A stretch of 64,000 nt of DNA from Bradyrhizobium barranii subsp. barranii (GTDB taxonomy: Bacteria; Pseudomonadota; Alphaproteobacteria; Rhizobiales; Xanthobacteraceae). A program made the translations under genes and the position numbers. The notes under the pieces were generated by a model, which saw nothing but the letters and a program-made list of their open reading frames with translations, did no database searches and was not told where the DNA came from. Positions 56,964 through 64,000 of the stretch are shown in pieces; the first letter of the stretch is position 1; the number at the start of each line of letters is the position of its first letter. The DNA is taken from positions 3,207,501-3,271,500 of the forward strand of contig NZ_CP086136.1 of assembly GCF_017565645.3 (NCBI RefSeq), read 5' to 3'.

Positions 56964-57413
56964 TCAGGCGCTGGCGATCGTGTGGATCGCTTCGCGCACC
57001 TGCTGGAAGGTGCCGCAGCGGCAGATATTGGTGATGGCCTCGTCGATATCGGCGTCGGTCGGCTTCGGCTTTTCGGCGAGGAGTGCGGCCACCGCCATGA
57101 TCATGCCGCTCTGGCAATAGCCACATTGCGGAACGTCCTTGGCGATCCAGGCTGCCTGCACCTTGTGCAGCGTGTCGCCGGATGCGAGCCCCTCGATTGT
57201 GGTGATCTTCTTGCCTTCGGCCTCGCTGACCGAAATCCCGCAGGAACGGGTGGCAACGCCGTCCATGTGAACGGTGCAGGCGCCGCATTGCGCAATGCCG
57301 CAGCCATATTTGGTGCCGGTCAGGCCGGCATTTTCTCGAATCGCCCAGAGCAGCGGCGTATCCGGCTCGACGTCGAGCGTGAAGGTTTTTCCGTTGATTG
57401 TTAGGTTTGCCAT
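56964..57413 (-). CDS. (2Fe-2S)-binding subunit of the molybdenum hydroxylase
   Basis: A 149-residue iron-sulfur subunit. The plant-ferredoxin-type cluster uses C38, C43, C46 and C58 ([20 protein letters not shown]), and the second cluster uses the cysteines of PQCGYCQSG and NICRCGT. The ATG at 57411-57413 is used. There is no signal peptide; it is presumably carried out with the Tat-exported large subunit. It passes electrons from the molybdenum centre to an outside acceptor. Confidence 0.94.
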
Positions 57414-57624
57414 CGCAAGTCCCCTGATTGGCCCAATCCACCGATCGGACTCAGGGAACAATGTGTCTGGCAAATTGGAACTGTTCAAATCAATAGTCCG
57501 AGGGGTGGCCAACAGCGAGGCTGGCATGCGCGGGGAAGAATGTTGGAAGCGCGGTGTTGCGTTGTGAACGGCGGTGCAAATCCGCAGCCGTTGGTCGCAT
57601 CGAATTCGTTTGACTATCTGAGGG

Positions 57625-57663
57625 TATTGTACAACCTTTGGTTTGATGGATCATTAGTCCATC
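57625..57663. promoter_or_regulatory. two palindromes upstream of the candidate precursor peptide gene
   Basis: A perfect 8-bp palindrome TTGTACAA (57627-57634) is followed by GATGGA-N7-TCCATC (57645-57663). The second ends just before the ribosome site (AAGGGAG) and could act as an operator or as a small hairpin in the leader RNA. No clear -35/-10 pair was found. The 266-base gap from 57414 holds no other gene that I can support. Confidence 0.35.
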
Positions 57664-57679: not shown

Positions 57680-57934
57680 ATGGGCCGCATCGTCACGATC
57701 GATCTCGAAAAAGTTCTCGCGTCAGGTAACGATCTCAAAGCCAAGTCACCGTCCGGACTCACCACCCACGCCGATCTGCTCAGCCTTGCCAGCGACGTCA
57801 GCAAGGACCCGGTCTCCTATCTGAGCAGCGTTGGCGTACAGCTCGACGACCAGACGGCGTCGATGCTGCGGAACAAGCTGGCCACGCGTAGCGGCGGCGT
57901 ACAGGCCGGTACGATCCATATCGACATCCTCTGA
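57680..57934 (+). CDS. candidate RiPP precursor peptide
   Basis: An 84-residue peptide with a strong ribosome site (AAGGGAG, then ATG at 57680). It starts MGRIVTIDLEKVLASGNDLK and ends GGVQAGTIHIDIL. It has no cysteine or tryptophan, several serines and threonines, and a mostly helical, leader-like middle (DPVSYLSSVGVQLDDQTASM). A Gly-Gly at residues 72-73 would leave an 11-residue core (residues 74-84). It matches no family that I know. The precursor role is inferred from its size and from its position directly before four co-translated peptide-modifying enzyme genes. It could instead be a small partner protein. Confidence 0.7.
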   Translation: MGRIVTIDLEKVLASGNDLKAKSPSGLTTHADLLSLASDVSKDPVSYLSSVGVQLDDQTASMLRNKLATRSGGVQAGTIHIDIL

Positions 57935-57958
57935 TCCCGCATCTGCAGATCACGATGG

Positions 57959-57986
57959 CCGGCTGACCGGTTCGCCGGGCAGCCGG
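57959..57986 (+). promoter_or_regulatory. stable UUCG-loop hairpin between precursor and enzyme genes
   Basis: CCGGCTG-A-CCGG-TTCG-CCGG-G-CAGCCGG forms a 12-position stem with a single A/G mismatch and a UUCG tetraloop, one of the most stable RNA hairpins. No T-tract follows, so it is more likely an attenuator or 3'-end stabiliser that raises precursor mRNA over enzyme mRNA than a full terminator. It ends 18 bases before the preferred start of the next gene. Confidence 0.65.
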
Positions 57987-58004
57987 GATATGAGGTCGTC
58001 GGCC

Positions 58005-59063
58005 ATGGCGTTCGGCGCACAATTTTTATCCGATTTCCGCGCGGCCAGGGTGACGCCTACCAATCTCGTTCTGAACGTCACTCTGAAATGCCCGCTCAAA
58101 TGTTCGCATTGCTGCTTTTCATCTGACATGTTTCACGGCGGGCACCTGTCCGCCGCGGACGTTCATCGTTGCATTCAGCAGGCCGCACAGATCCCGTCGA
58201 TGGAGATCATCCATTTCGTCGGGGGTGATCCGATGCTGCATGCGGATATCGTTGCCGACGCCGTGGCACTGGCCGCGTCGCTGGGCTTGCGCGCGGGTAT
58301 CACCACGAGCGCGTTCTGGGCCAAGTCGCCCGCGCGCGCAACGGCGGCTGTTCGGCAATTGCGCGCGGCCGGGCTCACCGAAATGACCTTGTCTTACGAC
58401 GATCCCCACGCCGAGTTCGTGCCGCTGAATTTCATTGCCAACGCGGTCGCGGCTGCGCGCGAATGCGGCCTGCTGCTTCGGATCGCCGTGGTGGTCGAGG
58501 CGGGTTCGAAGATCACCGCCGCCAGCCTGCGCGCCGATCTCGATCTTCAGGACGAGCCCGGCATCAACATCTATGAGACCGTCGCCAACTCGACCGGACG
58601 CGGCGAGGGCACGGACGAGGACACGCAGGCGGGGCGCGTTCGCCACGCCTCGGCCTATCGCGGTCCCTGCGAGTCCGTTCTCCACACCGTCACGGTCGAT
58701 CACGAGGGCGGCATCCGGCCCTGCTGCGGCGTGCTTCCCCATTACGACTCGCTGAAGGTCGGCCACATCGCGAAGGAAGGGATCGAGGCCGCGATGCGGG
58801 CGGCCGCGGACGATCCGCTCTACAGATGGATCAGGCTCGAGGGACCCGTCGCCATCCTCGCCGCAGTCACGGCCGCCGATCCCGTGCCGATGCGCGTTGA
58901 GGATTTCGACGGCATCTGCACCGCCTGCGACCGCATCTTCCGCTCGCCAGAGCTGCTGGCGCGCGTGCGCGAAGCCGCCGAAGCGCGCCGCGGCCAGATC
59001 GAAACCTGCGAAATCCTGCTGGACGGGCAAGCCGCATCGGCCAACCTCGTGGCCGCACAATGA
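58005..59063 (+). CDS. radical SAM protein with SPASM-like C-terminus
   Basis: A 352-residue radical SAM enzyme. The cluster motif is CPLKCSHC (C-x3-C-x2-C, residues about 29-36) in LVLNVTLKCPLKCSHCCFSS. HFVGGDPMLHADI corresponds to the GGEP motif, with D replacing E. The C-terminal cysteines (RGPCESVLHTVTVDHEGGIR, then PCCGV, and ICTACDR) suggest extra Fe-S binding of SPASM type. The start at 58005 has GAGG upstream; an ATG at 57990 is an alternative but sits only four bases after the hairpin. It overlaps the next gene (ATGA). A role in modifying the candidate peptide is inferred from position. Confidence 0.85.
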   Translation: MAFGAQFLSDFRAARVTPTNLVLNVTLKCPLKCSHCCFSSDMFHGGHLSAADVHRCIQQAAQIPSMEIIHFVGGDPMLHADIVADAVALAASLGLRAGITTSAFWAKSPARATAAVRQLRAAGLTEMTLSYDDPHAEFVPLNFIANAVAAARECGLLLRIAVVVEAGSKITAASLRADLDLQDEPGINIYETVANSTGRGEGTDEDTQAGRVRHASAYRGPCESVLHTVTVDHEGGIRPCCGVLPHYDSLKVGHIAKEGIEAAMRAAADDPLYRWIRLEGPVAILAAVTAADPVPMRVEDFDGICTACDRIFRSPELLARVREAAEARRGQIETCEILLDGQAASANLVAAQ

Positions 59064-61024
59064 GCGTCGATGTCCTCTTCTGCTCGGCGCCGGTAATGTC
59101 CGTGGTGCGGCCGTCGGCGGCGCTCGGCCTGTTGCAGGCCCTGCTGCGGCAGAAGGGCATTCGGGCCAAGACGCTCTATCTGAACCTGCTCTTCGCCGAC
59201 CGCATCGGGCTCGATCCGAACGAGCAGCTTGCGGAGAAGCTGCCGAGCCACCTCCTCGCCGGCGATTGGCTGTTCGGCGATTGCCTGGGCGTGCGGCCGG
59301 ACCGGCCGCAGGCGCAACGTCATCTGAGCGAGCTCAGCGCCGCCATCGAGCGCAAGGGGCTGGACCAGCTCTACGAGATCCGCCGCAGCCTGATTCCGTC
59401 CTTCGTGGCGGAAGCGGCCGACCGGCTGCTCGAACGCACCCCCAAGATCATCGGCTTCACCTCGATGTTCGAGCAGACGGCCGCTTCGCTCGCGATCGCG
59501 GCCGCGGTCAAGGCGCGCGATCCGTCCGTCGTCGTCTGTTTCGGCGGCGCCAATTGCCATGGGCCGATGGGCGCGGTGCTGCTGAAGAACTTTGCGCAGA
59601 TCGACTATGTCTTCAACGGCGAGGCCGATACCGTGTTCGGGCCGGCCGTCGAGGCAATCCTGCGCGGCGAAGCGCCCCGCGGCCTCCCGGGATGCCTGTC
59701 CCGCGACCAGCCGGCTGCTGGCGCAGCAGCCGGTCCGACCGCGATGGATGCGCTGCCGATTCCCGACTACGCCGACTATTTCGCGCAACTGCCCTGGATG
59801 TCCGAAGCCGCGCGCGTGCGTCCCTCTATTCCGTTCGAGTCCTCGCGCGGCTGCTGGTGGGGACAAAAGCATCACTGCACCTTCTGCGGCCTCAACGGCG
59901 ATGGCATGGCGTTCAGGGCCAAGTCGGCGCCGCGCGTGCTCAGCGAGATCGAGACCCTGCATGCGGAGTTTGGCATCGGCCGCTTTGCCGCGACCGACAA
60001 CATCCTGGGCATGTCCCATATCGACGGCGTGCTGGGCAGGCTCGCCGAACGCCCGGCGCACGGCTTTCGCTTCTTCTACGAGATCAAGGCCAATATGGAC
60101 GAGGCGCAGCTCGAGAAGCTGGCGCTCGCGGGAACGGTCTGGTTGCAGCCCGGCATCGAGAGCCTGTCGGATCCGGTGCTGCATCTCATGCGCAAGGGCG
60201 TGAGCGCGCTGCTCAACCTCCGCCTGCTGCGCAATTGCCGCGAGCTCGGCGTCGGGCTGGTCTGGTCGATCCTGTACGGATTTCCCGGCGAGCCCCGCGA
60301 CGCCTACGACGCCGTCGCAAAAATGGTTCCGCTGCTCGAACATCTTCAGCCGCCGGTCGGCTGCGGCCGTATCCGGCTCGACCGGTTCAGCCCCAATTTC
60401 GAGCGCGCCGCCGAGATCGGATTCCGCAACGTCACGCCGATGCCGGCCTATGGCGCGATCTACGATGTCCCTGACGAGGATCTCTTCGATCTCGCTTATT
60501 TCTTCGAGGGCGACGCACCCGATGCCGCGCGCGAGCAGGATCTGGTGTCGCTCAAGGCCGCGAGCGCGGCCTGGCGTGCGCGCTGGTTCGATCAGCCCTT
60601 TGCGCCGCAATTGACGATGACGGCGGTCGGCACGGCGCATCTCGTCAGCGACACCCGGGCCTGCGCGCTCCAGCCGTTCTATTGCCCGACACCGGCCGAG
60701 ATCGCCGTGCTCAATCTGCTGCGCAATCCCTGCACGCGACTGAGCGTCATTGAACAGCTTGCCGATCGTTTGGATGCGGCATCAGTCGAGGCCGCACTGG
60801 ATACGATTCTGGCGCGACGGTTCGCGATCGAAATCGACGGCAGAGTGTTGTCGCTCGTCACCGAGGCCGGCAGGGAGATTTTTGACGCCGACGCCCGCGC
60901 CGAATTTCCACTCGGATTCGTCCTGCCACGCGAGCGTATCGCGCTGCCGGAAGCAGACGGGTTGCTCGCGGCCTTGACGAATGCCCGCGACGAGCCGGCT
61001 GACCTCGAACGGGTGCAGCCATGA
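59060..61024 (+). CDS. RiPP maturation radical SAM C-methyltransferase
   Basis: A 654-residue protein. Residues 1-220 resemble a cobalamin-binding domain (PSAALGLLQALLRQKGIRAK; VVVCFGGANCHGPMG; VFNGEAD). The radical SAM core carries the distinctive SSRGCWWGQKHHCTFCGLNG (residues about 261-280; cluster cysteines C-x7-C-x2-C), the hallmark of the RiPP maturation rSAM protein 1 family, many members of which are C-methyltransferases. WLQPGIESLSDPVLHLMRKG and YGFPGEPRDAY are further family motifs. The C-terminal 130 residues look like a winged-helix or PqqD-like peptide-binding module (LSVIEQLADRLDAASVEAAL), though this is uncertain. It overlaps its neighbours on both sides by four bases. Confidence 0.88.
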   Translation: MSVDVLFCSAPVMSVVRPSAALGLLQALLRQKGIRAKTLYLNLLFADRIGLDPNEQLAEKLPSHLLAGDWLFGDCLGVRPDRPQAQRHLSELSAAIERKGLDQLYEIRRSLIPSFVAEAADRLLERTPKIIGFTSMFEQTAASLAIAAAVKARDPSVVVCFGGANCHGPMGAVLLKNFAQIDYVFNGEADTVFGPAVEAILRGEAPRGLPGCLSRDQPAAGAAAGPTAMDALPIPDYADYFAQLPWMSEAARVRPSIPFESSRGCWWGQKHHCTFCGLNGDGMAFRAKSAPRVLSEIETLHAEFGIGRFAATDNILGMSHIDGVLGRLAERPAHGFRFFYEIKANMDEAQLEKLALAGTVWLQPGIESLSDPVLHLMRKGVSALLNLRLLRNCRELGVGLVWSILYGFPGEPRDAYDAVAKMVPLLEHLQPPVGCGRIRLDRFSPNFERAAEIGFRNVTPMPAYGAIYDVPDEDLFDLAYFFEGDAPDAAREQDLVSLKAASAAWRARWFDQPFAPQLTMTAVGTAHLVSDTRACALQPFYCPTPAEIAVLNLLRNPCTRLSVIEQLADRLDAASVEAALDTILARRFAIEIDGRVLSLVTEAGREIFDADARAEFPLGFVLPRERIALPEADGLLAALTNARDEPADLERVQP

Positions 61025-62181
61025 CCGTCGAAGTCCGCCCCCTCGGCGACAAGTGCAACATCAAGTGCCGCTACTGCTATCAGGAGGGCATCCGCACCGC
61101 CGGCAACGTGCCGACGCGTTACGATCTCGATGCGATCATGGCGACGCTGGACAGATTGGCGGAGCCCTTCAGCCTGTTCGGCGGCGAGATCATGCTGACG
61201 CGCCGGCCCGATCTCGAGCGCCTGATGCAGCTTGGCTTCGACCGCCATGGCGGCGTCGGCATGCAGACCAACGGCACGCTGATCGAGGAGCGCGACATCG
61301 AGCTCTTCAGGAAATACCACGTGCGCATCGGCATCTCGATCGACGGGCCGGGACCGCTCAACGATGCCCGCTGGGCCGGCAGCCTGCCGGCGACGCGGCG
61401 TGCGACGGCGCGCATCGAGGCGGCGATCGAGACGCTGTGCCGGGAGGGCATGCCGCCGAACGTGATCGTGACGCTCAACCGGATGAACGCCACGCCGGCT
61501 CGGCTCGGCGTGCTGTGCGAGTGGATCGGGTTTCTCGGCAGCCTTGGCGTGCGCAAGCTGCGCCTGCACCTGCTGGAGCAGGACGAAACGGAAAGGGGCG
61601 AGGGTCTCGCGCTCACCGCGCAGGAGAACCTTGCGGCTTTGAGGCGACTGCGCCGGCTCGAACAGGAGCTGCCGTCGGTTCAGTTCGACATCTTCGCCGA
61701 GATGGCCGCGATGCTCAGGGGCGATGACGCGCAGACCTCATGCGTCTTCCACGCCTGCGATCCCTATGCAACGCGCGCCGTGGTGGGTGTCGAGAGCGAT
61801 GGCCGGCTCGGCAATTGCGGCCGCACCAACAAGGATGGTGTGACCCATCTGCGTGCCGGCCGCGAGGCCTTCGAGCGCCAGCTCTCGCTTTACAGGACGC
61901 CGCAGGCCGATGGCGGATGCGAGGGGTGCCGGTTCTTCCTCGCGTGCAAGGGCAATTGTCCGGGCACCGCGATCGACGGCGACTGGCGGATGCGCTCGAT
62001 CGATTGCCCGGTGTGGTTCGGCTTGTTCGAGGACATCGAGACCGAGCTTCAGGCGAACGATGAGGTCGCGATCAGCCGGTCGGAGCGCCGGTCCGATCTC
62101 GAAGCGAAGATGATCGCCGCCTGGTCGATCGGTGACAATCCGACCCTGCATTCATTGCTCCAGCAGGCGGACGCACCATGA
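61021..62181 (+). CDS. radical SAM/SPASM peptide-modifying enzyme
   Basis: A 386-residue enzyme. The radical SAM cluster is C12-N-I-K-C16-R-Y-C19 in LGDKCNIKCRYCYQEGIRTA. GGE is present in FSLFGGEIML, and MQTNGTLI and GISIDGPGPLND are typical of the sulfatase-maturase-like SPASM group. The C-terminal SPASM cysteines lie in CVFHACDPY, GRLGNCGRTN, GGCEGCRFFLACKGNCPGTA and SIDCPVWF. Such enzymes install carbon-carbon, carbon-oxygen or epimerised residues in peptides. It overlaps both neighbouring genes by four bases. Confidence 0.88.
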   Translation: MTVEVRPLGDKCNIKCRYCYQEGIRTAGNVPTRYDLDAIMATLDRLAEPFSLFGGEIMLTRRPDLERLMQLGFDRHGGVGMQTNGTLIEERDIELFRKYHVRIGISIDGPGPLNDARWAGSLPATRRATARIEAAIETLCREGMPPNVIVTLNRMNATPARLGVLCEWIGFLGSLGVRKLRLHLLEQDETERGEGLALTAQENLAALRRLRRLEQELPSVQFDIFAEMAAMLRGDDAQTSCVFHACDPYATRAVVGVESDGRLGNCGRTNKDGVTHLRAGREAFERQLSLYRTPQADGGCEGCRFFLACKGNCPGTAIDGDWRMRSIDCPVWFGLFEDIETELQANDEVAISRSERRSDLEAKMIAAWSIGDNPTLHSLLQQADAP

Positions 62182-63611
62182 CGTCCGCCTGGCCGACCTG
62201 CTGGCTGACCTGGCCCCGTCCTCCGCTCGCGGCCGCACCGCGGGAGCCGGCCGTCGCCAAGGCAGTGACGCAGCGCATCAGCTTCACTGGCCCGCAGGCG
62301 CGCGCGCTCTGGCAGCCGCGTCTGGATCGCCTCAGGCATGCGGCGCTAGCGATCGAATTCGAGATGGTGCGCCGGAAGCGCATCCCGGCCACGCTGGTGT
62401 GGACTGGCTATGATGGCATCGACGCCCTGACCGAGCGGGCGCGCGCGATTGGCCTCGAGGCCAAGCCGGTCAAGGCGTCGCTCGGCTATGCCGCCGACTG
62501 GCCGCTTGAGGCATCGATCGCCGAACCGAAGCGGCTGCTCGACTATGCGTTCCTGATCGGCGCCGCGCCGCTCGACACATCGATCGCTGAGCCCGCGCCG
62601 GACGGCCTGGAGCAGGCCGCGATACGGTTCGGCTATCCCGCATGCTGCGCAAGGTCCTGGGCGGACTATCTTGGGCGCGGCGGAAGCGATCCGTTGGCCG
62701 GCATCCTCGCGCGCGCGGACAAGGCGGCCGTACCTGCTCATGTCGCGCTCGCGGTTCTGGGACTGGGGCCGGTGAGACACGCGCCTTGTTCTGCCGACTG
62801 TTCCACTACGCGCGATCTTTCGCGTGAGTTCATCGATCTCGGCCGCCAGCTGGGATTGGCCGAGGAAATGAGTTGGCTGGAAGAGATGGCGGATTGGACG
62901 ATGGGGGCGTCGCTGGTCAATGGCATTGCCGAAATTGCGACGGCCGCCTTCCGCTGCACATGGCTGTCCGACGAGGGCACACCGTCGCATCGGCGGCCTC
63001 GTCAGCGCGCGGCGGCGGCGCACCTGGACAAGCGAAAGGCCGCAGCGGTCGAGCCCGCGGACAGCGCCGGTATCCTCACCGAACTCGGCGGCGGATTTGA
63101 AGCGGCCGGTTTCGAGAACCCCTTCGCCATGCGCTCGCGCTTCAGCACGGTGGTCTGGGAGCAGACCGCTGCGCTACGCCGCGCGGGATCGGCCGTGCAT
63201 GTCGGATGCGGCGATGGCTTGCTGCTGGAATTGATCGCGCAGACGAGGCCAAAGCTGAGATTATACGGTGCCGAGGAAGATGCCGCGCTAGCTGAAGCCG
63301 CGCGCCGGCGCCTCGGTGCGTCATTGCCGGTGCTCGGTGGGACAAGCATCGCGGCGATTGCGGCGCTGTCGCGTCTCGCGCCTGATGGCGTCGACCTCGC
63401 TTTCGTCGATCCGGAACGGCTTGGCGGCCGCGAAGCGCTTGCCGCTGTCCGCGCGATCGCGAAATCAGTGATCGTGATCGGCACCGACCGATCGCTGCAC
63501 CGGCTTGGGGATATGGACACGCTTGCGGCATCGATGGGATTTGCCTTGCTGCCTGGACGCGCAGGGCGGGTCTCCGCGGCCCTCTCGGCGACGAGTGGTC
63601 GTCCGCACTGA
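62178..63611 (+). CDS. DUF483-like domain fused to an SAM-methyltransferase-like domain
   Basis: A 477-residue protein. Residues about 140-250 carry AIRFGYPACCARSWADYLGR and VRHAPCSADCSTTRDLSREF, the paired-cysteine motifs of DUF483-like proteins, possibly a metal site. Residues about 330-440 form a Rossmann-like domain with AVHVGCGDGLLLELIAQT (a glycine-rich SAM motif) and VDLAFVDPERLGG. The pairing is unfamiliar to me. As part of the translationally coupled cluster it may methylate or otherwise finish the peptide, for example at the backbone or a side chain. That is inference. Confidence 0.72.
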   Translation: MTSAWPTCWLTWPRPPLAAAPREPAVAKAVTQRISFTGPQARALWQPRLDRLRHAALAIEFEMVRRKRIPATLVWTGYDGIDALTERARAIGLEAKPVKASLGYAADWPLEASIAEPKRLLDYAFLIGAAPLDTSIAEPAPDGLEQAAIRFGYPACCARSWADYLGRGGSDPLAGILARADKAAVPAHVALAVLGLGPVRHAPCSADCSTTRDLSREFIDLGRQLGLAEEMSWLEEMADWTMGASLVNGIAEIATAAFRCTWLSDEGTPSHRRPRQRAAAAHLDKRKAAAVEPADSAGILTELGGGFEAAGFENPFAMRSRFSTVVWEQTAALRRAGSAVHVGCGDGLLLELIAQTRPKLRLYGAEEDAALAEAARRRLGASLPVLGGTSIAAIAALSRLAPDGVDLAFVDPERLGGREALAAVRAIAKSVIVIGTDRSLHRLGDMDTLAASMGFALLPGRAGRVSAALSATSGRPH

Positions 63612-63633
63612 CCGGTTCGAAGGAGAGATCGCC

Positions 63634-64000
63634 ATGGACGCGACGTCGATTGACTGGGAACGCACAGCACGACCGCAGGCCGACGGCTACGATACCGCCG
63701 TCGCCCTCGGCCTGATCGAAACCGAGCCGACGCCGTGGCGGCCGCTGCCGCCGCAGCGTCCCCCGGTGAACGGCGCACCGGCCATCGCGGAGGGTAGGGT
63801 TGCCCTGCGCACGGAGGATCCGCTGCTGCCGGCGCCGCGGTTTGTCCCCGACGCGCAAGCCGTCCCTGCGCTGGAGCAGGCGCTGCATTACGTCCGCCGC
63901 TGGCCGCTCGCTGCGAAACAATGGCCTGATATCGTGCACACCATCCAGTGCTATCACGACACCGAGCAGCCGACCGAGGGGCCCGGCCGGCTCGGCTCGG
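63634..64000 (+). CDS. partial gene, possible HExxH-type peptide modification protein
   Basis: The gene opens behind a strong ribosome site (AAGGAG) with the ATG at 63634-63636, giving MDATSIDWERTARPQADGYD, and continues past the window edge (122 codons seen). A proline-rich early region (PTPWRPLPPQRPP) is followed by ALEQALHYVRRWPLAAKQWP and DIVHTIQCYHDTEQPTEGPG. This resembles the part just before the catalytic HExxH in the putative aKG-HExxH-type peptide hydroxylase family, as I remember it; the motif itself is outside the window. It lies 22 bases after the DUF483 gene and is probably in the same operon. Confidence 0.5.
   Translation, partial: MDATSIDWERTARPQADGYDTAVALGLIETEPTPWRPLPPQRPPVNGAPAIAEGRVALRTEDPLLPAPRFVPDAQAVPALEQALHYVRRWPLAAKQWPDIVHTIQCYHDTEQPTEGPGRLGS

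Follow-up and report, generated by a model that had tools for sequence, protein, structure and literature searches.

The window, a stretch of 64,000 nucleotides from the 11.4 Mb genome of Bradyrhizobium barranii subsp. barranii, ends in six plus-strand genes, here named A to F, which are best read as a cassette for a ribosomally synthesised and post-translationally modified peptide (RiPP). In this reading, held at a probability of about 0.6, A encodes the precursor, the radical S-adenosylmethionine (SAM) protein D and the two-domain protein E act on a histidine-x-aspartate (H-x-D) motif of A, likely forming a three-residue ring, and D, E, and F are related to a phage module. From 57680 the order is A (84 amino acids), B (352, from 58005), C (654), D (386), E (477), and F (279). 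A first-pass annotation of the window had described a small peptide gene followed by three radical SAM genes and a fused methyltransferase gene, and the open reading frames (ORFs) from 57680 to 63611 were all confirmed. The four-base stop/start overlaps that it placed among the four enzymes are present as ATGA; they amount to three junctions, B/C, C/D, and D/E. F starts at 63634, 22 bases past E, and leaves the window; the cassette ends outside it, at window-equivalent 64473. Beyond F lie a gene for a B12-dependent radical SAM protein, named G, a major facilitator superfamily transporter gene on the opposite strand, and an isocitrate dehydrogenase-like gene.

A is very probably the precursor, and its C-terminal V-Q-A-G-T-I-H-I-D-I-L would be the modified part. 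Database searches returned 11 and then 14 homologues. An alignment of 14 rows, three further sequences (P0044–P0046), and one from locus L159 give 18 aligned homologues, some of which may be duplicates of one protein drawn from different sources, and the C-terminal H-I-D is invariant in all of them. A contains two histidines, both located in H-x-D motifs (HAD at residues 30–32 and HID at 80–82), and H80 is the sole ring side chain among residues 74–84. The leaders of P0045 and P0046 are just 34% and 26% identical to that of A, yet all nine residues of VQAGTIHID are retained, compared with 21 and 16 of 61 leader residues, respectively (Fisher test, 2.2e-4 and 3.1e-5). The pattern QAG[TS][IV]HID occurs in three of 315 family genomes, each time in a copy of A, while the reversed control gave no match.

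A is under purifying selection, with an NG86 mean of 0.045 for non-synonymous (dN) and 0.392 for synonymous (dS) changes over 28 pairs from eight sequences, the identical copy of locus L019 being excluded. Among Bradyrhizobium, A is conserved along its full length (96% mean column identity), unlike many antimicrobial RiPP precursors. This would suit a small protein that partners the enzymes, with the substrate encoded elsewhere. Such a role is very improbable, since among diverged homologues H-I-D persists although the leader changes and is missing a segment, the gene order begins with A, and relatives of D adjoin H-x-D proteins. The first-pass annotation had expected a variable peptide C-terminus; instead, H-I-D is the fixed part. 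As far as these alignments go, the fixed core of A contrasts with RiPPs that have variable cores. The non-varying C-terminus points to one fixed product in a soil bacterium, possibly one that serves as a metal ligand or resembles a cofactor rather than a variable antibiotic.

H-x-D is very probably the site at which D and E act, because the viral relatives of D and of the DUF483-like domain of E accompany H-x-D-rich proteins and because H-I-D is fixed in A. A profile built from haloarchaeal plasmid relatives of D yielded 18 loci from viral contigs, 16 of which (L174–L189) are 36–47% identical to D, two over just 54–56 residues, and 12 are distinct after removal of near-copies. All 16 of these, out of the 18 loci, have at least one ORF that shows an excess of [HYFW]-x-[DN] of more than 5 standard deviations over shuffles (19 of 77 ORFs tested), and the same excess is seen in the Thermus phage Cumys and in the haloarchaeal locus L167. 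The background is 0 of 98 ORFs from the window and 29 non-viral loci. It is residues at i and i+2 that show the excess; a fainter signal at larger distances comes from the repeats. The motif is mostly H-x-D; in the 343-residue repeat protein of Cumys, all 54 histidines stand in H-x-D. The H-x-D-rich ORF directly adjoins the D gene in 13 of the 16 contigs. The viral repeat proteins start with GS-x-W-x-E-type repeats and contain up to 77 copies of [HYFW]-x-[DN].

A DUF483-like ORF is likewise found in 13 of the 16 contigs, the other three ending within or just past the D genes, and the five long viral DUF483-like ORFs scanned with Pfam all show methyltransferase signals as well. In L174 the order is D, E, F, with the F relative above cut-off; in the near-copies L181 and L182 the F relative is below cut-off and is truncated where the contig or locus ends. 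Relatives of A, B, C, and G were not found in 17 viral loci at an E-value of 1e-5. Tandem D-like genes stand beside one H-x-D protein in L181:2734-7362 and L183:6001-8914, and a 673-residue D-like copy in L181 and L182 itself bears an H-x-D-rich stretch. Full-length plasmid relatives of D are exclusively haloarchaeal (12 records matched), and in both haloarchaeal plasmid relatives the next gene encodes a stand-alone DUF483-like protein. A phage-like region of a Halomicrococcus plasmid (L167:5338-8498) encodes a 206-residue H-x-D/Y-x-D repeat protein, a D-like radical SAM protein, and a DUF483-like protein. The gene of the repeat protein precedes that of the D-like protein, and in the second half of the repeat protein 23 of 27 ring residues have Asp at i+2 (0 of 10,000 shuffles).

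The trio of a radical SAM gene, a DUF483 gene, and a third gene in Thermus phages was noticed earlier, and DNA modification was proposed as its function (PMC11437467). Passages of that paper also note DUF483-methyltransferase fusions in InterPro and place cyanobacterial relatives among deazapurine genes, which would agree with a role in DNA modification; these passages do not mention H-x-D repeats. That the D-DUF483 module modifies DNA is nevertheless extremely improbable, given the H-x-D-rich proteins that adjoin it, the SPASM maturase motif in all 20 rows of the D clade that were checked, and the location of the Bradyrhizobium module in a peptide-modification operon.

B, C, and D match the Pfam model Radical_SAM above cut-off. 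D additionally carries the full SPASM cysteine pattern, as judged by regular expression and cysteine positions; the Pfam SPASM model itself was unmatched. The best scores of D are nearly tied between DynA (66.1 of 450 bits), the anaerobic sulfatase maturase (63 bits), and AmcB (62.4 of 425 bits). In a tree, 20 D-like rows, with L174 nearest to the D of the window, stand together against GrrM/OscB, XyeB, HaaB/FxsB, and the sulfatase maturase (support 98/98, with a long-branch warning). D is thus about equally close to sulfatase maturases, which oxidise Cys or Ser, and to cyclophane enzymes, and in E a methyltransferase is fused to the DUF483-like domain. Both features would fit a reaction on H-x-D that forms no cyclophane, e.g., one in which D oxidises or otherwise attacks a side chain of Asp or His and E then methylates it, yielding a different modified residue in the phage fibres and in A alike. 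This alternative is unlikely, if still a serious one, since the strict pairing of a ring residue (H, Y, F, or W) at i with D or N at i+2 is the known grammar of three-residue cyclophanes, as passages of PMC11002830 describe it. The same source reports His C2 to Cβ cross-links at i,i+2 made by HaaB, YhhB, and ScaB. For the ring proposed here, a three-residue cyclophane of His and Asp, the odds are slightly better than even.

The C-terminal half of E is a class I methyltransferase by fold, and in the N-terminal DUF483-like domain the cysteines at 156–157 (CC), C204, and C208 are invariant in 17 aligned rows. No Pfam model scores above cut-off in the E of the window. With the DUF483 model PF04467, it is not among the matches, while four of ten relatives appear at E-values up to 10 (best 0.099). 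A profile-profile comparison of E with viral DUF483-methyltransferase proteins gave a probability of 100 and an E-value of 1.8e-44 over 423 columns. The DUF483-methyltransferase fusion named in the first-pass annotation is upheld by this match, together with a weak and recurrent below-cut-off resemblance. F is assigned to TIGR04267, the α-ketoglutarate (aKG)-HExxH family, with 89.6 bits against a cut-off of 40. Its HEMAH motif at residues 150–154 is located outside the window, and His150 and His154 are conserved in all eight sequences; F has no sequence match to solved structures. The identity of F as an HExxH hydroxylase, that of the next B12-radical SAM gene as a resident of the site, and the phage relatives of D-E(-F) all lay outside the window on which the first-pass annotation was based.

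B is nearest to the peptide epimerase YydG/EpeE, with 91.7 bits against an equivalog cut-off of 300 for TIGR04078. It aligns with crystal structures of EpeE across residues 21–317 and has cysteines in CxxxCxxC at 29–36, at C222, C240-C241, and C305/C308, sharing with EpeE the radical SAM cysteines, the CC pair, and the C-terminal CxxC. In the alignment with 8ai1, Cys241 falls on the second cysteine of the CC pair, which corresponds to Cys223 only under our own offset of 25 residues for the tagged chain. Cys223 of EpeE is the hydrogen donor, according to passages of PMC8326336. Whether or not B epimerises is an even bet. In B. barranii subsp. apii (L019), Tyr replaces the second Cys of CxxxCxxC, which is retained in seven of eight orthologues; judging by this substitution, the L019 copy of B may be inactive.

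C belongs to TIGR03975, a broad subfamily of RiPP methyltransferases, with 596.3 bits against a cut-off of 281.85. The motif CWWG..HCTFC, by which the operon had been tied to RiPP maturation, is indeed found in C, with C265, C273, and C276. Elsewhere, an EpeE-like gene and a TIGR03975 gene follow a possible precursor of 262 residues with a Cys-rich stretch (L084:5406-9507), and a solitary TIGR03975 gene follows an 86-residue peptide whose leader is arranged much like that of A, DP...L..G....GG (L082:6978-9216). Transposon-like genes disrupt a TIGR03975 gene in two Bradyrhizobium genomes, including that of the window (L080:6637-7449 and L081:6869-10901).

The resemblance of B to the epipeptide epimerase, the membership of C in a broad RiPP subfamily, and the fit of H-I-D to the triceptide grammar could indicate a described class (epipeptide, proteusin, or triceptide) with extra tailoring. 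This is improbable, as B scores below the YydG cut-off, D scores below the cut-off of every model scored, A belongs to no NCBIfam or Pfam family at E-values up to 0.1, and literature searches turned up no such gene set. The same searches of A gave no match to the nitrile-hydratase-like leader of proteusins, and A lacks Cys, which the precursors of sactipeptides and ranthipeptides need for thioether formation. The initial proposal that an unfamiliar set of genes forms a RiPP operon is supported: C and F pass their family cut-offs, A is unmatched, and a small precursor gene and dedicated peptide-modifying enzymes are conserved together, with A to G collinear.

Several observations weigh against the reading of A to F as a cassette with ring formation on H-x-D. 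D falls far short of the cut-off in every named cyclophane maturase model scored, and the named cyclophane enzymes fall outside the D clade on long branches, with the sulfatase maturase adjacent. The viral relatives of E reach 13.9–24.8 bits with DUF483, below its cut-off of 25. In the alignment with EpeE, B has Thr at the position where Asp is changed to Ala between 8ai1 and 8ai6, a point that weakens its assignment as an epimerase. A has just two H-x-D motifs, and HAD is not retained in diverged homologues. In P0010, P0011, and P0044 the core is conserved no better than the leader, though H-I-D stays. An H-x-D-rich ORF was not found in the stretches read of L168 and of the Thermus phage phiLo (L197), in which transposase genes adjoin the radical SAM gene, nor in those of the distant hits L190 and L191, and the repeat protein of L178 is rich in HxN, not HxD (16 vs 1). 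Family scans of A to F gave no match to a protease, an exporter, or a RiPP recognition element.

For the processing of A we infer a scheme in which the use of H-x-D as substrate, each reaction, the order of the reactions, and the leader cut are all proposals. D and the DUF483-like domain of E would act on H-x-D, the likeliest product being a three-residue ring in which the His ring is bonded to the β carbon of the Asp two residues on. At or near this motif, the methyltransferase half of E would methylate and F would hydroxylate; β-hydroxylation of Asp and His by HExxH enzymes after cyclophane formation is described in passages of PMC12636437. C would move a methyl group onto an unactivated carbon, and B would abstract an α hydrogen and invert a residue, most plausibly an Ile or a Val next to the ring. 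According to the same passages (PMC12636437), HExxH enzymes are also able to cleave the peptide backbone at small residues. With no protease gene in A to F, F might, speculatively, release the core in this way. D, E, and F would correspond, in bacteria, to a phage module that adjoins a tail-fibre-like protein containing H-x-D repeats by the dozen. Tentatively, with chances a little short of even, D-E(-F) is a virus-born or virus-shared module that rings the H-x-D repeats of tail-fibre-like proteins, and Bradyrhizobium recruited it, along with an epimerase-like enzyme and a B12 methyltransferase, for one peptide with a fixed core.

A to G are collinear and have the same flanking neighbours in all seven named Bradyrhizobium loci; the nearest named relative at this locus is B. 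barranii subsp. apii, whose E is 97% identical. The same site was read in 15 further relatives, picked among those with both flanking genes. One of them (G022) has A to F at the site and 14 are without the cassette. By this comparison, A to F form a cassette unit at one fixed site and G is a resident of that site, because in 12 of the 14 cassette-free sites G immediately follows the 2Fe-2S gene and the sequence upstream of G is conserved. Among 197 relatives, eight match E at an E-value of at most 0.001, six of them full-length, the own genome included. On a tree of the flanking genes (23 rows), the cassette requires no fewer than four gain or loss events, of which two are forced by well supported branches; on this evidence its distribution is patchy, through loss or exchange. 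G (L009:8161-9783 and relatives) contains DUF4070, and a conserved block upstream of it (GACAGTTTGTCC ... TACACTG) is also found at cassette-free sites. The hairpin between A and B perhaps holds the precursor message above the enzyme message.

Table 1. Features of the A–F cassette and of a related phage module (window positions unless a locus is named).
Feature	Position	Strand	Remarks
Left flank common to cassette-free sites	57412..57510	.	similarity ends near 57510; right flank picks up at about window-equivalent 64520
7-bp hairpin in the 5' leader, directly upstream of the ribosome site of A	57645..57663	+	near-identical in 9 loci; fold not better than shuffles (z -0.05)
A, putative precursor peptide, 84 residues	57680..57934	+	ORF; no family match
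Second H-x-D of A, HAD, residues 30–32	57767..57775	+	segment absent or altered in diverged homologues P0008–P0011 and P0044–P0046
Putative core of A, residues 74–84, VQAGTIHIDIL	57899..57931	+	H-I-D at 57917–57925 invariant in 18/18 aligned homologues
UUCG-capped 7+4 bp hairpin in the A–B gap	57959..57986	+	perfect; identical in 9 aligned loci; z about -1
B, EpeE/YydG-type radical SAM protein	58005..59063	+	alternative start 57990 possible
C, TIGR03975 RiPP maturation B12-radical SAM C-methyltransferase	59060..61024	+	596.3 bits
D, radical SAM/SPASM protein	61021..62181	+	CNIKCRYC; C-x2-C-x5-C-x3-C at 300–313; phage relatives adjoin H-x-D-rich proteins
E, DUF483-like N-domain (about residues 32–265) and class I methyltransferase (about 297–471)	62178..63611	+	
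F, TIGR04267 aKG-HExxH-type peptide β-hydroxylase, first part	63634..64000	+	continues to window-equivalent 64473 (L009:7135-7974)
Cumys phage module: H-x-D repeat protein, radical SAM/SPASM gene, DUF483(-methyltransferase) gene	L192:4937-8167		

If the proposal is true, tail-fibre-like proteins of bacterial phages and of a haloarchaeal plasmid carry a post-translational modification that has gone unrecognised, and one motif connects it with a new class of RiPP and with a role for DUF483. DUF483 would gain its first function, as the partner of a peptide-modifying radical SAM enzyme. In searches of the open-licence PMC literature, neither the A–F gene set nor the link to H-x-D was found; DUF483 and radical SAM occurred together only in PMC11437467, and radical SAM, tail fiber, and cyclophane did not occur together.

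Among known systems, the Thermus phage Cumys/phiMa module is alike in placing a D-like radical SAM gene beside a DUF483 gene and a third gene. It differs in having no A-like precursor and no B or C, and its third gene encodes the H-x-D repeat protein. The TIGR03975 loci share an enzyme family with C, their TIGR03975 gene following a short peptide in L082 and an EpeE-like gene in L084; their putative precursors are without H-I-D, unlike A. The epipeptides (EpeX/EpeE, YydFG) are related through B, most of which can be aligned with EpeE and which retains the C-C and CxxC positions. B nevertheless falls far below the cut-off of 300 bits, the precursor is unlike theirs, and the cassette contains four more enzymes. 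The aKG-HExxH enzymes ChlBH and PflC/PosC share TIGR04267 with F and, in passages of PMC12636437, offer a precedent for Asp and His hydroxylation on a cyclophane peptide, whereas F is a stand-alone protein without a sequence match to solved structures and is accompanied by another precursor. The triceptides (XyeA/B, OscB, HaaB, and YhhB) share the SPASM radical SAM family; their pairing of a ring residue at i with D, N, or another residue at i+2, which includes His-based examples according to passages of PMC11002830, would be matched by H-I-D. D stands outside their named enzymes in the tree and below the cut-offs of their models, and in the Bradyrhizobium cassette it is instead joined by epimerase-like, B12 methyltransferase, DUF483, and HExxH partners.

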